DNA of 35,020 nucleotides from Herbiconiux solani NBRC 106740 (GTDB lineage Bacteria; Actinomycetota; Actinomycetes; Actinomycetales; Microbacteriaceae): NCBI RefSeq assembly GCF_001571005.1, contig NZ_BCST01000014.1, positions 1 through 35,020 of the forward strand, given 5' to 3'. The first letter of the stretch is position 1, and each line of letters starts with the position of its first letter. Below the pieces are notes generated by a model. It made no database searches. It was not told where the DNA came from and saw nothing but the letters and a program-made list of their open reading frames with translations. Positions 5,348 to 8,418 of the stretch are shown here, in pieces. The position numbers were made by a program, and so were the translations under genes.

Positions 5348-6465
5348 GCGGGGTCGACGCGACTCCTGTGGGCGAGCGGGCGGTGGTCGGGTACTACGTG
5401 CATCACGTGGGTAGCGGGCATCTCTCGCGCGCCGGCTCCGTCGCGGCGGCGCTGGCAGGGCGGGCCGCGGTGACCGGCCTGTCGTCGGTGGCGCGGCCGG
5501 CGGGGTGGGACGGCGGGTGGGTGACGCTCCCGCTCGACGCGGACGAGCATCCCGTCGGTGGCGCTGCTGCTGTCGATGGTTCTGCTACTGCCTCAGGCGA
5601 TGCGCACGACGTCAGCGCGGGCGGGCGGCTGCACTGGGTGCCGGTGGGGCACGCGGGACTGCGCGAGCGGATGGCCGGCATCTCGGCGTGGATCGCCGCC
5701 GCCCGGCCCTCGGTGATCGTCTCGGACGTGTCGGTCGAGGTGGCTCTGCTCGCCCGGCTGCACGGGGTGCCGGTGGTGACGGTCGCGCTGCCCGGGCGGC
5801 GCGACGACGAGGCGCACCGACTCGGGTTCGCAGTGTCGTCGGCGATCATCTCGGCGTGGCCCGACTCGGCCGAGGGGATGCTCACCGGCCTCGACCCCGA
5901 CGCCCGTGCGAAGCACACCGCGGTCGGAGCGATCGCGCGCTTCCCGTCGGATGAGGCGGGCCCAGCCGTGCCAGAGCCGTCGGCGGACGGGCGGCCGCGG
6001 GTGCTCGTGCTGAGCGGCAGCGGAGGCGGCGGGATGTCGGCCGCGGCGCGCGCTCGGGCCGAGGCCTCGGCACCGGACTGGCAGTGGGACGTGATCGGCG
6101 GCCCGGGCGGGCGGTGGGTCGCGGATCCGTGGCCGTTCATCCGCTCGGCCGACGTCGTCGTCACCCACGCCGGTCAGAACGCCGTGGCGGAGGTGGCGGC
6201 GGCGCGGGTTCCGGCGGTGGTCATCGCGCAGGATCGCCCCCACGACGAGCAGCGGCACACCGCTCGGGCGCTGGAGCGCGGGCCGTGGCCGGTCGTCACG
6301 GCGGACTCGTTCGAGGATGCGGACTGGCCTGCGCTCCTCCGTGCGGCCGCCGAGCTCGACGGCGACGACTGGTCGACCTGGAACGACGGCCGCGGTGCCG
6401 CCCGCGCCGCCGACGTCATCCTGCGCGTCGCCCGGGCCGAGGATGTTCTCGAGGCCGGGCTATGA
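5344..6465 (+). CDS. MurG/GT28-like glycosyltransferase
   Basis: This is a GT-B protein of 373 residues. It opens with GYYVHHVGSGHLSRA, which resembles the GxGGH-type N-terminal loop of MurG and UGT-like enzymes. It ends with a MurG-like donor block (VVTHAGQNAVAEVAAARVPAVVIAQDRPHDEQ), where MurG has a GxxT/S-x-x-E-x-x-x-x-x-x-P arrangement. GTG 5344 is taken as the start because it forms a GTGA overlap with the upstream stop and the protein fold begins immediately after it. The stop codon is again shared with the next gene (ATGA at 6462). It probably transfers a sugar from a nucleotide donor to a lipid or growing glycan. It is not MurG itself, since the surrounding genes are not cell-division genes. 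Confidence 0.82.
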   Translation: MSGVDATPVGERAVVGYYVHHVGSGHLSRAGSVAAALAGRAAVTGLSSVARPAGWDGGWVTLPLDADEHPVGGAAAVDGSATASGDAHDVSAGGRLHWVPVGHAGLRERMAGISAWIAAARPSVIVSDVSVEVALLARLHGVPVVTVALPGRRDDEAHRLGFAVSSAIISAWPDSAEGMLTGLDPDARAKHTAVGAIARFPSDEAGPAVPEPSADGRPRVLVLSGSGGGGMSAAARARAEASAPDWQWDVIGGPGGRWVADPWPFIRSADVVVTHAGQNAVAEVAAARVPAVVIAQDRPHDEQRHTARALERGPWPVVTADSFEDADWPALLRAAAELDGDDWSTWNDGRGAARAADVILRVARAEDVLEAGL

Positions 6466-7337
6466 GCGGCGACTTCGGATCGCGCCGGCCCGTCACCGCG
6501 CTGATCACGGTCGTGCACGGGCGCCACGAGCACCTGCAGCGGCAGCTCGAGGCGGTGGCGCTGTGCGACCCCTGGCCCGACCATCACGTCATCGTCGCCA
6601 TGGACGACCCCGCCATCGCGGGGCTCCTGCCGTCGGGCCCCGACCGCCCTCACCTCGTCACCGCCGACCCGCCCGCTCTCTCCCAGGGTGCGGACGGCGG
6701 CGGGGCACTGCCGCTGGCGCGGGCTCGCAACCTCGGAGCCACCACCGCGCTGGCGCTCGGGGCCGAGGTGCTGGTCTTCCTCGACGTCGACTGCCTCCCC
6801 GCACCGGCGGCGGTCGGCGCATACGCGGCCGCTGCGACGGCCGAGGAGACAAGTGGGCGACTGCTGTGCGGGCCCGTGACGTACCTTCCGCCGGCACCCG
6901 ACGGGGGTTACCGGCTCGACCGGCTGGCCGAATCCGACCGGCCGCATCCGGCCCGGCCCGCACCCGCGCCCGACGAGATCGAGCTCGGCGGCCCGCACGA
7001 GCTGTTCTGGTCGCTCTCGTTCGCCCTGCACGCCGACGTCTGGCGGCGGATCGGCGGCTTCGCCGAGGAGTACGTCGGCTACGGCGGTGAGGACACCGAC
7101 TTCGCCTTCACCGCCCGCAGCCGGGGCGTCGAGCTCGCCTGGGTCGGCTCGGCGCGCGCGTACCACCAGCACCACGCCGTCTCGTCGCCGCCGGTCGAGC
7201 ACGTGGCCGAGATCGTGCGGAACGCCCGGGTCTTCCACGACCGCTGGGGCACCTGGCCCATGCAGGGCTGGCTCGACGCCTTCGAGCAGCGCGGCCTCGT
7301 CACCCGCGACCCCGCCGGCGCCTACCGCGTCTCGTAG
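6462..7337 (+). CDS. Glycosyltransferase family 2 with galactosyltransferase-type C-terminus
   Basis: This is a GT-A type transferase of 291 residues. The metal/nucleotide-sugar motif is the DVD of VFLDVDCLP (D108-V-D110). The C-terminal segment GGFAEEYVGYGGEDTDFAFTARSRG matches the Glyco_transf_7C region, in which the ED pair binds acceptor or catalyses transfer. A conserved histidine run (AYHQHHAVSS) follows. The start is the ATG in the ATGA overlap with the previous gene. It is the last gene of the four-gene operon and the only GT-A member. The hairpin element at 7400-7468 lies 62 bases after its stop and probably marks the transcript end. Confidence 0.88.
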   Translation: MSGDFGSRRPVTALITVVHGRHEHLQRQLEAVALCDPWPDHHVIVAMDDPAIAGLLPSGPDRPHLVTADPPALSQGADGGGALPLARARNLGATTALALGAEVLVFLDVDCLPAPAAVGAYAAAATAEETSGRLLCGPVTYLPPAPDGGYRLDRLAESDRPHPARPAPAPDEIELGGPHELFWSLSFALHADVWRRIGGFAEEYVGYGGEDTDFAFTARSRGVELAWVGSARAYHQHHAVSSPPVEHVAEIVRNARVFHDRWGTWPMQGWLDAFEQRGLVTRDPAGAYRVS

Positions 7338-7399: not shown

Positions 7400-7468
7400 T
7401 GTCCTCGACCCGTCAATTGTTGTCGCTACTCACATGGAATAGCGACAACAGGCGACGGGTCGAGGACA
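7400..7468. repeat. Compound hairpin element, copy 1 (shared with 7764-7840)
   Basis: A perfect 15-bp outer inverted repeat pairs 7400-7414 (TGTCCTCGACCCGTC) with 7454-7468. Inside it, separated by a 3x3 internal loop, an 11-bp stem pairs 7418-7428 (TGTTGTCGCTA) with 7440-7450 (TAGCGACAACA). The loop is 11 bases (7429-7439) and ends in GAA. The distance from the inner edge of the outer arm to the loop is 14 bases on each side, exactly as in copy 2. It lies between convergent genes (stops at 7337 and 7483), so it could end transcription from both sides, but there is no T-run. Related by core sequence and geometry to copy 2, so it is a repeated element and not a chance terminator. Confidence 0.92.
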
Positions 7469-7482
7469 GGGTGGGCGCCTGC

Positions 7483-7719
7483 TCAGTCGACGAGAGCGGG
7501 CTCGGAGATGGGATGCGGGGCGCGAGCCGGATCGGCAGAGTGCGCCCGCTCGAGCGCGGCCTGCGCATCCTCGACGGACTCGAACAGGCCGAGCGAACGG
7601 CCGGTGACGACAGTCGCGCGGTAGGCGCGACGGGCCTTGCGGGAGACGATTCCGGCGGGGCGGCCCTCGTCGAGGGCGACCCAGAGGCCGGCTTGCGGAT
7701 GACGCCATTGGATCCTCAT
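7483..7719 (-). CDS. Small protein of unknown function between two hairpin elements
   Basis: This is a 78-residue soluble protein starting MRIQWRHPQAGLWVALDEG. It appears to fold as a short beta-rich N-terminus (LWVALDEGRPAGIVSR, AYRATVVTGRSLGLF) followed by a helix (SVEDAQAALERAH) and a Pro/Ala-rich tail. The ATG at 7719 is preferred over the upstream ATG at 7755 because conserved-looking sequence begins there. No clear Shine-Dalgarno site is present, so the start is tentative. It has no signal peptide, membrane segment or cysteine. The gene is monocistronic, with hairpin copy 1 starting 14 bases past its stop and copy 2 lying 44 bases before its start. I do not recognise a family. A regulatory or nucleic-acid-binding role cannot be asserted. 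Confidence 0.6.
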   Translation of the reverse strand: MRIQWRHPQAGLWVALDEGRPAGIVSRKARRAYRATVVTGRSLGLFESVEDAQAALERAHSADPARAPHPISEPALVD

Positions 7720-7763
7720 GACACCAGGCCTACGCGCGTCCGGCCCCGGAGGCACGGGGTTGA

Positions 7764-7840
7764 CACCACGCCGAGACGTCGCTTGTGGTCGCTAAACAGG
7801 GCGAATAGCGACAGCAAGTGACGTCTCGGCGACAGTGGTG
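7764..7840. repeat. Compound hairpin element, copy 2 (shared with 7400-7468)
   Basis: Bases 7769-7794 pair with 7806-7831 to give a 26-bp stem with one G.A mismatch (7787/7813) and two G.T pairs. The outer 12 bp (CGCCGAGACGTC) and the inner GTCGCTA/TAGCGAC are perfect. The loop is 11 bases (7795-7805) and, like copy 1, ends in GAA. CACCA (7764-7768) can extend the stem with TGGTG (7836-7840) across a 4-base bulge. The 14-11-14 spacing of arms and loop is identical to copy 1. It begins 20 bases past the stop of the leftward PfpI-family gene, so it may also serve as that gene's 3' end. Confidence 0.92.
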
Positions 7841-7860: not shown

Positions 7861-8418
7861 TCAGCGCGACGCGAACGCCGCCACGATCTCCCGGTTGAAG
7901 TCGTCGAGGTCGTCGGGGGTGCGCGACGTGACCAAGGTCCAGCCGCCCTCCGTGTCGACGCAGACCGACTCGTCGACCCACTCGGCGCCGGCGTTCAGGA
8001 TGTCGGTCTGCAGTGACGCGTAGCTCGTCATCCGCTTGTCGACGATCTCGCCTGACTCGACCAGGGCCCACGGGCCGTGGCAGATCGCACCGATCGGCTT
8101 GCCGGCCTCGATGAAGGCCGAGACGAGGTCGATCGCGTCTTCCTGCAGCCGCAGGTTGTCGGCGTTGATCGTGCCACCCGGCACGACGAGGGCGTCGAAG
8201 TCGTCGACCGAGACGTCTCCGACCACCGCGTCGGGCGTGAAGCTCTGACCCGGATCCTTGTCACCGACCAGGCTCTGGATGGGAGCCTGCTCGATCGCGA
8301 CCACGACCGGGTCTCCCCCGGCATCCTGGATCGCTTGTCGGGGGCTCGCCAACTCCGCTTCCTCGACACCGTAGTTCGTGACGAGGATGGCGATCTTGCG
8401 GCCGTCCAGCGTAGGCAT
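7861..8418 (-). CDS. DJ-1/PfpI family protein (type 1 glutamine amidotransferase-like)
   Basis: This is a 185-residue cytoplasmic protein of the PfpI/YhbO branch of the DJ-1 superfamily, members of which are proposed proteases, deglycases or stress chaperones. The nucleophile elbow is AICHGPW with Cys113 and His114. The N-terminus (KIAILVTNYGVEEAEL) provides the acidic residue of the active site, and VVPGGTINADNLR is the usual strand-turn. The length matches the family. The start ATG is preceded by AGAGAGG. It lies 45 bases after the SRPBCC gene and probably shares a transcript with it. Its stop is followed by hairpin copy 2. Confidence 0.92.
   Translation of the reverse strand: MPTLDGRKIAILVTNYGVEEAELASPRQAIQDAGGDPVVVAIEQAPIQSLVGDKDPGQSFTPDAVVGDVSVDDFDALVVPGGTINADNLRLQEDAIDLVSAFIEAGKPIGAICHGPWALVESGEIVDKRMTSYASLQTDILNAGAEWVDESVCVDTEGGWTLVTSRTPDDLDDFNREIVAAFASR

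Follow-up and report, generated by a model that had tools for sequence, protein, structure and literature searches.

A dispersed 57-bp palindromic repeat behind stop codons in Herbiconiux solani, with apparent counterparts in related bacteria

The REP (repetitive extragenic palindromic) elements and REPINs of enterobacteria and pseudomonads are short, lineage-specific palindromes that occur in dozens of copies, lie behind stop codons and are associated with RAYT transposases. Here we describe two long hairpins in a 35,020-nt stretch of DNA from the actinobacterium Herbiconiux solani NBRC 106740 (Microbacteriaceae; contig NZ_BCST01000014.1, positions 1 to 35,020 of the forward strand; this whole stretch is called "the window"), and the repeat family to which they belong. 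This family likewise consists of short palindromes that appear lineage-specific and are found in dozens of copies behind stop codons, but it differs from REP elements and REPINs in its long stem, its near-fixed centre of 10-11 nt, the lack of solo arms and the lack of a Y1 transposase match in the host. Another point of comparison is the uptake sequence of Haemophilus, which is often unpaired.

The Haemophilus uptake sequence is present in about 1300 copies, and its pairs form terminators (PMC5217627); as in the window's family, a genome-specific sequence forms inverted pairs at gene 3' ends, but none of 80 half-sites is single here. For mycobacteria, hairpins that lack a U-tract and lie no more than 50 bp from a stop codon have been described as the predominant type of intrinsic terminator (PMC12288462), and both the in vivo support for such U-less termination and the contrary in vitro evidence are summarised in PMC5335608. 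These I-shaped terminators resemble the family described here in being hairpins without a U-run no more than about 50 bp from a stop codon (within 60 nt for 57 of 68 hairpins here), yet a terminator needs just a stem, whereas the stem sequence of the window's family is common to dozens of copies and variable between lineages. Repeated stem-loops are also known from actinobacteria, e.g., Myt-1 (72 bp, 75 copies) in M. tuberculosis and Cod-5 (74 bp, 35 copies) in C. diphtheriae (Cozzuto et al. 2008, PMC2267715); these are similar in size and copy number, but the accessible parts of that study mention no cross-genus family. Myt-1 and Cod-5 might be branches of the window's family, in a comparison made by size and copy number and not by sequence. 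A general preference of stem-loops for gene 3' ends is known as well (PMC1590033; PMC2267715). Finally, the palindromic motif GAATCCAT(N)23ATGGATTC of Bradyrhizobium japonicum, nearly all of whose 52 copies lie about 50 bp or less from a gene 3' end (PMC5217627), is likewise a palindrome present in dozens of copies at gene 3' ends and, in the accessible text, has no assigned function, but its sequence is different, its conserved arms are much shorter and its centre is longer. No description of the window's palindrome family was found in the accessible parts of the literature searched, which comprised papers readable without subscription.

The two conserved palindromes of the window are as follows.

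7406..7462: element 1, conserved 57-bp palindrome (arm 7406-7428, loop 7429-7439, arm 7440-7462)
7772..7828: element 2, conserved 57-bp palindrome (arm 7772-7794, loop 7795-7805, arm 7806-7828)

Pairing reaches beyond the 57 bp in both cases, i.e., to 7400-7468 for element 1 and to 7769-7831 for element 2, or about 7764-7840 when pairing past a bulge is counted. Folding energies were -51.4 and -54.5 kcal/mol for element 1 and -51.8 and -48.0 kcal/mol for element 2 (plus and minus strand, respectively), and none of 200 shuffled sequences folded as well in any of the four cases (two hairpins, both strands). An earlier, sequence-only reading of this stretch had noted a shared inner core, 11-nt loops ending in GAA, a 14-nt spacing between outer arm and loop, and the differing outer arms GACCCGTC and GAGACGTC, all of which we recovered.

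Both hairpins are members of a single repeat family. In the 3.85-Mb host genome (a draft assembly of 18 contigs), 19 places carry the exact core GTCGCTA-N(10-11)-TAGCGAC, with none for a reversed control, and at all 19 sites the inverted repeat continues into the flanks with a common consensus. A one-arm search of the host, in which up to three mismatches were allowed and pairing was not required, returned 80 half-sites, 40 in each direction; all of them belong to one of 40 palindromes, and none stands alone (reversed control, 0). The centre measures 11 nt in 39 of these copies and 10 nt in the remaining one (L013). Since half-sites were found solely as whole palindromes with a near-fixed centre, the unit is a 57-bp palindrome (arm 23, centre 11, arm 23). 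The sequence-only reading had held the common geometry to be more than chance and had made its case depend on further copies in the host and in related Microbacteriaceae; the 19 exact cores and 40 palindromes, with both controls at 0, bear out the former, and the host copies, together with covariance model matches in relatives (56 of 120 genomes of the family, see below), supply the latter.

Among 38 host copies, identity was 87.5% in the inner arms, 61.5% at arm positions 24-34, and 48% in the loops (in the better orientation, chosen on the loop) versus 34% for random loops, i.e., a mean of 5.31 of 11 positions compared to 3.73 of 11 for random loops of equal composition. The loops keep a weak common form, TCCGnnnGGTTT, and given this form the view that they are devoid of homology was withdrawn. 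Taken together, the stem homology and the weaker loop homology make it most likely that the host repeats were copied from one another as whole units, with a loop that would be free in sequence but hardly in length. Two complete elements, both diverged from the consensus, lie 40 bp apart at G000:C13:4159-4312, which suggests a local duplication. Copies of the main subfamily are unevenly distributed, with none in C1:1-392000 or C2:1-470000 and four in the 100 kb after each; other subfamilies are present within C1:1-392000.

These other subfamilies were seen in a model-free hairpin scan of 400 kb of the host that was not selected for matches, in which 18 hairpins scored at least 13, compared to none in a block-shuffled control. 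All four hairpins scoring at least 20 have the family foot: two represent a second host subfamily (CGAGAAGTCA...CGTCCAA), one a third (CGAGACGTCAAAAAAGGTCCCAA) and one the window's subfamily, and a fifth, weaker hairpin (C1:107115) resembles the type found in genome G004. Members of the second subfamily, equal in geometry, were observed at L010:2353-2408, L148:3848-3923, L196:923-978 and L205:6539-6598, at a distance of about 35 bp from a main-subfamily copy in L010 and about 1.8 kb in L148. For a second genus (G022), an arm search with up to four mismatches in a 400-kb stretch picked as rich in matches gave 17 matches (8 with the reversed control), 14 of which form seven palindromes; 13 of these 14 paired half-sites have 0-1 mismatch, and the three unpaired matches all have four.

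A covariance model trained on the host gave matches in 16 of 16 genomes of the genus at E <=0.1, and the exact host core TTGTCGCTA-N(9-13)-TAGCGACAA was present in 0 of the 15 congeners. Other genomes have their own stems, i.e., CGAGTGGGCrnTTTGGGCCCCAA in G022, TTGAGTGGTCACTTTTTGTAGTTC in G113 and CGATCGGTCGCAAACTGTCGCCT in G131, and the commonest shared stem part across genomes is the foot CGA-nnn-G[T/G]C. The relatives examined keep the geometry with a stem sequence of their own, and we read them as lineage-specific versions of the repeat. A cross-species covariance model had matches in 56 of 120 Microbacteriaceae genomes and 47 of 85 genera, host included (E 0.001), in 47 of 297 genomes of an order sample (E 0.0001), 11 of them the host or members of the same family, and in 32 of 394 genomes of a class sample, comprising 8 from the host or its family, 4 from the same order and 20 from outside the order. 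These genome counts are perhaps low, as limited candidates were scored per genome and strict filters applied above 40 genomes, and the weak matches far from the genus may be other hairpins.

We compared the model to the 33 model-free hairpins found in 800 kb of two genomes (host and G022). Of the 21 classed as non-family, one scored 22 bits and the other 20 were absent from the model's list even with the threshold at E 10; listed family members scored 34-68 bits on the better strand, and a doubtful G022 hairpin (3259155) 30 bits. Because nearly all non-family hairpins were unlisted, the model is selective near the genus, and its weak matches outside the order are uncertain. Two loci scoring 39 and 32 bits (L324:6799 and L315:17388) were absent from the model-free list, and one family member seen by eye (C1:80923) was missed by model R2 at E 10. 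Several matches outside the order have a close stem, e.g., CGACCCGGCACTTGTTGACGC in L301. No long hairpin was present at the assumed place in 4 of the 18 loci from other classes or orders within a set of 22 (L293, L297, L298 and L302), several others being short or imperfect, in 2 of 28 scanned order-sample loci (L233 and L230), or in L236.

Several further observations concern the spread of the palindrome. In G113, five loci (L171, L172, L173, L174 and L175) have a stem extended by 4-8 bp through a site-specific, perfectly inverted flank that differs between copies; the idea drawn from these, insertion into the apex of older hairpins, was rejected as a general explanation, because in G022 pairing was about equally good for a copy's own flanks and for swapped ones. 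Long hairpins with the window's inner core and other outer arms were observed in a Microbacterium metagenome-assembled genome (MAG; L054, 5972-5998) and in Schumannella soli (L056, 7629-7655). A Lachnospiraceae MAG contains paired core palindromes with starts 343-359 bp apart (L037 634-1019, L045 1272-1646 and L071 6723-7092) and a roughly inverted loop, resembling the two ends of a small inverted-repeat element, and these pairs are probably unrelated to the actinobacterial family. An Acidobacteria MAG has two palindromes in which a TGTCGCTA core is extended outward by inverted flanks (L041 3451-3477 and L063 4899-4925), which could reflect misbinning or convergence. Three elements were also searched against plasmids and gave no match.

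Next, we evaluated the position of the repeats relative to genes. The window elements lie among three predicted frames.

6462..7337, plus strand: predicted gene, glycosyltransferase-like by eye; stop codon 62 nt before extended hairpin 1 (start 7400)
7483..7755, minus strand: small open frame of 90 amino acids between elements 1 and 2, convergent with the 6462-7337 gene
7861..8418, minus strand: DJ-1/PfpI-family gene; stop codon 32 nt from the element 2 core and 20 nt from its outermost pairing

Element 1 is placed between the convergent frames 6462-7337 and 7483-7755. Element 2 is directly behind the DJ-1/PfpI gene, at the 3' end of which it lies given the 32 nt from the stop codon, and the neighbouring predicted genes thus agree with the gene-3'-end placement originally proposed for both hairpins. 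The small frame was not called by our home-made codon model and has no Pfam match, and similar frames are present in 16 of 16 genomes of the genus; the 15 congener loci are weak relatives (38-59% identity) and maybe not orthologous. Our hairpin scanner, moreover, misses element 1 in the host locus, so its sensitivity is imperfect, and for both reasons the neighbourhood comparison was left unused.

The same placement was observed across 68 hairpins (29 from the host, 19 from G022, 5 each from G113 and G131, 4 from G004 and 3 each from G061 and G065), seen by a de novo finder in loci fetched for pattern or model matches, with L010 and L017 added by hand; the second-subfamily hairpins of L010 and L148 are part of this sample, and window element 2 and some ten weaker host copies are not. 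Overall, 41 hairpins lie in convergent gaps, 22 in tandem gaps, 3 in divergent gaps, 1 within a predicted gene and 1 is undecided, compared to 22 convergent, 147 tandem and 50 divergent among 219 control gaps, i.e., element-free gaps of the identical loci with genes called by the codon model (Fisher p 3e-16). A stop codon was found within 60 nt of the hairpin in 57 of the 68, with distance quartiles of 16, 28 and 51 nt to stop codons and 44, 68 and 146 nt to start codons. No U-tract was seen in the 76 tails of 38 host copies, in which the longest T-run was 3 (2 at the outer boundary).

The flanking genes share no cargo: nine of them (besides the small frame) have unrelated functions or are unmatched by Pfam, e.g., histidinol dehydrogenase, cpn60 chaperonin and FGGY kinase, and no common gene was found in this sample. 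The host groEL is followed by an ordinary T-tailed terminator; a family element also lies about 190 nt downstream of its stop codon, close to where the convergent gene ends. The repeat family is therefore not the sole means of ending transcripts. The groEL gap of four other genomes (G001, G011, G015 and G002) contains further long hairpins or repeats whose pattern was too unclear for scoring, and in G011 (L268) two hairpins with starts about 190 bp apart have common 20-bp arms (CGCAAACGTCGCGGCATCCG) and different 15-nt loops.

The differing outer arms of the two window hairpins, each pairing with its own partner, had been taken as a sign of compensating changes. For 38 of the 40 host elements (L013, with its 10-nt centre, and the copy at C13:4256 were left out of arm-matching statistics), left and right arms match at 1042 positions. 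Re-pairing the arms at random gives a mean of 1021, and the excess of about 2% is reached by 19 of 1000 shuffles (9 of 1000 for the inner 23 positions alone). Much of this excess is carried by position 20 from the loop (GAT/GAC/GAG), which is part of the difference originally described and at which left and right match in 23 of 38 copies versus 14.0 expected (0 of 1000 shuffles); correlation is weak at positions 10, 19 and 29 (12, 78 and 28 of 1000 shuffles). In L010 and L013, one arm has GAGAC and the other GACCC. The proposal thus stands as a small left-right excess, clear at position 20, but not as strong compensatory evolution within the genome, where the arms follow one consensus. A cross-species alignment covered 25 elements, 3 of them from the host, in 15 genomes of the genus. 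Both partners vary in 20 of its 24 pairs; pairing is kept in 93.6% of cells versus 68.2% in shuffles, and 145 cells are double-changed versus 46.4. This covariation is partly ascertained, as the search that yielded the elements used a model in which pairing is rewarded. The arm-only search and the model-free hairpin scan, neither of which uses such a model, provide independent support.

Signs of gain came from a single locus. A hisD match was found in 15 genomes, with nrdR also in view in nine (the host and eight congeners) and not in six. In a scan of these nine loci with the same imperfectly sensitive hairpin scanner, the hisD-nrdR gap contained a long family hairpin in the host and in none of the eight congeners; in G011 a long hairpin, a third one besides the two of its groEL gap, lies elsewhere, upstream of hisD (L249:101-177). 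Together with the homologous copies, this gap supports the mobile-element option of the sequence-only reading. Rfam 15 gave no match above the gathering score in the window, and across seven loci the only Rfam matches were three microRNA hairpins, all far below gathering.

Among the explanations first put forward, a REP-like dispersed element and a terminator without a T-run are the two that survive, and the preferred reading combines them: a REP-like palindromic repeat, multiplied by a putative factor, with a bidirectional role as a U-less 3'-end hairpin, to which we assign a probability of roughly 0.5. Each hairpin would be one copy of a dispersed non-coding repeat made of two 23-nt inverted half-sites around a 10-11-nt centre. 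The palindrome would be multiplied as a unit in each genome by a putative stem-reading factor, a REP-like life style without the REP transposase, and would be tolerated or favoured at gene 3' ends, where transcription from either side would yield a hairpin of at least 23 bp that may act as a bidirectional terminator of the U-less, I-shaped kind and so end or protect the messenger. The observations above support copying and position; transcription termination we infer from hairpin and placement. A terminator needs just a stem, yet in this family the copies of one genome keep a common stem sequence and other genomes have different ones, which suggests a sequence reader, either a copying enzyme or a binding protein. 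A more far-reaching version, which we regard as speculative, is an undescribed actinobacterial two-part system in which a sequence-reading factor and its 57-bp target co-evolve into lineage dialects, with the factor multiplying the palindrome and separating convergent units.

Several points weigh against the preferred reading. Mycobacterial RNA polymerase did not terminate in vitro without a U-tract, according to the accessible text of PMC5335608, T-tailed terminators lie behind groEL in the host and several congeners, and the conserved stem sequence is needless for a pure terminator. The excess of mutual arm matching within the host is small, position 13 (C or G) pairs less than in shuffles (14 versus 18.6), and the cross-species covariation is partly ascertained. 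Gain of an element was seen at one gap, hisD-nrdR. No target-site duplication was seen: among 38 host and 19 G022 copies, direct repeats of 2-9 bp were not in excess at boundaries set 20-45 nt away from the loop, the limits of the unit being approximate in this test. No mobiliser was found, with PF01797 the sole candidate protein family searched for. Finally, the 3'-end location would arise equally if insertion elsewhere were simply harmful.

The preferred reading was chosen on the basis of the position and the genome-kept stem, and it has two main rivals. The palindrome may instead be read by a protein as double-stranded DNA, with a sequence-specific dimer on the 57-bp dyad acting as a roadblock or boundary between convergent genes and the hairpin unneeded. 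We consider this possible but rather unlikely: conservation of stem sequence beyond pairing (87.5% versus 48% in the loop), a spacing of about one helical turn fixed in 39 of 40 copies, and arms that vary largely independently, as expected for two half-sites of one protein, are all consistent with it, but the lack of solo half-sites within three mismatches is unusual for a binding motif, the whole unit is present at the hisD-nrdR gap where eight congeners are without it, and position 20 is correlated left to right. Carrying about the same limited weight is a purely selfish palindromic repeat, tolerated behind stop codons and with no role in transcription. Stop-codon distances in occupied convergent gaps are about those of an ordinary host convergent gap (median 74 bp) plus the element, the hisD-nrdR element is found in one species only, and two copies lie 40 bp apart at C13, as such a repeat might show; yet divergent gaps are roomier (median 133 bp) and hold only 3 of 68 hairpins, and stop-codon distances are short (quartiles 16-28-51), although selection against promoter damage would explain part of this.

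Explanations based on known mobile elements are considerably weaker. A true REP or REPIN moved by a RAYT-type Y1 transposase would account for homologous, palindromic, lineage-specific copies located at 3' ends, but PF01797 has no match in the host and matches in 1 of 120 genomes of the family (G004) versus 5 of 14 control genomes; a RAYT-moved REP is thus disfavoured, and we consider it very improbable. About as improbable are miniature inverted-repeat transposable elements, i.e., deletion derivatives of an insertion sequence with the arms as its inverted ends. Such elements are also inverted, dispersed and non-coding, but the 38 host and 19 G022 copies showed no surplus of direct repeats at the boundaries tested, and in the host no arm lies outside a complete palindrome within three mismatches, so none flanks a transposase and no partner insertion sequence with these ends was found. 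Insertion-sequence ends and uptake-like half-sites were rejected for lack of solo arms (in the host, and in G022 with unpaired matches only at four mismatches). Two coincidental terminators, for which the location of both hairpins at gene 3' ends could speak, are ruled out by the 40 genome copies with a shared stem.

If the REP-like copied repeat with a 3'-end hairpin role is real, many high-GC actinobacteria would carry a REP-like repeat layer without the REP enzyme. These repeats would sit where convergent transcripts must end, in organisms poor in U-tailed terminators, a scarcity stated for mycobacteria (PMC12288462). They would thereby provide countable sites for studying how transcripts end without U-runs, and their lineage-by-lineage sequence code would be a guide to the putative factor that reads it.
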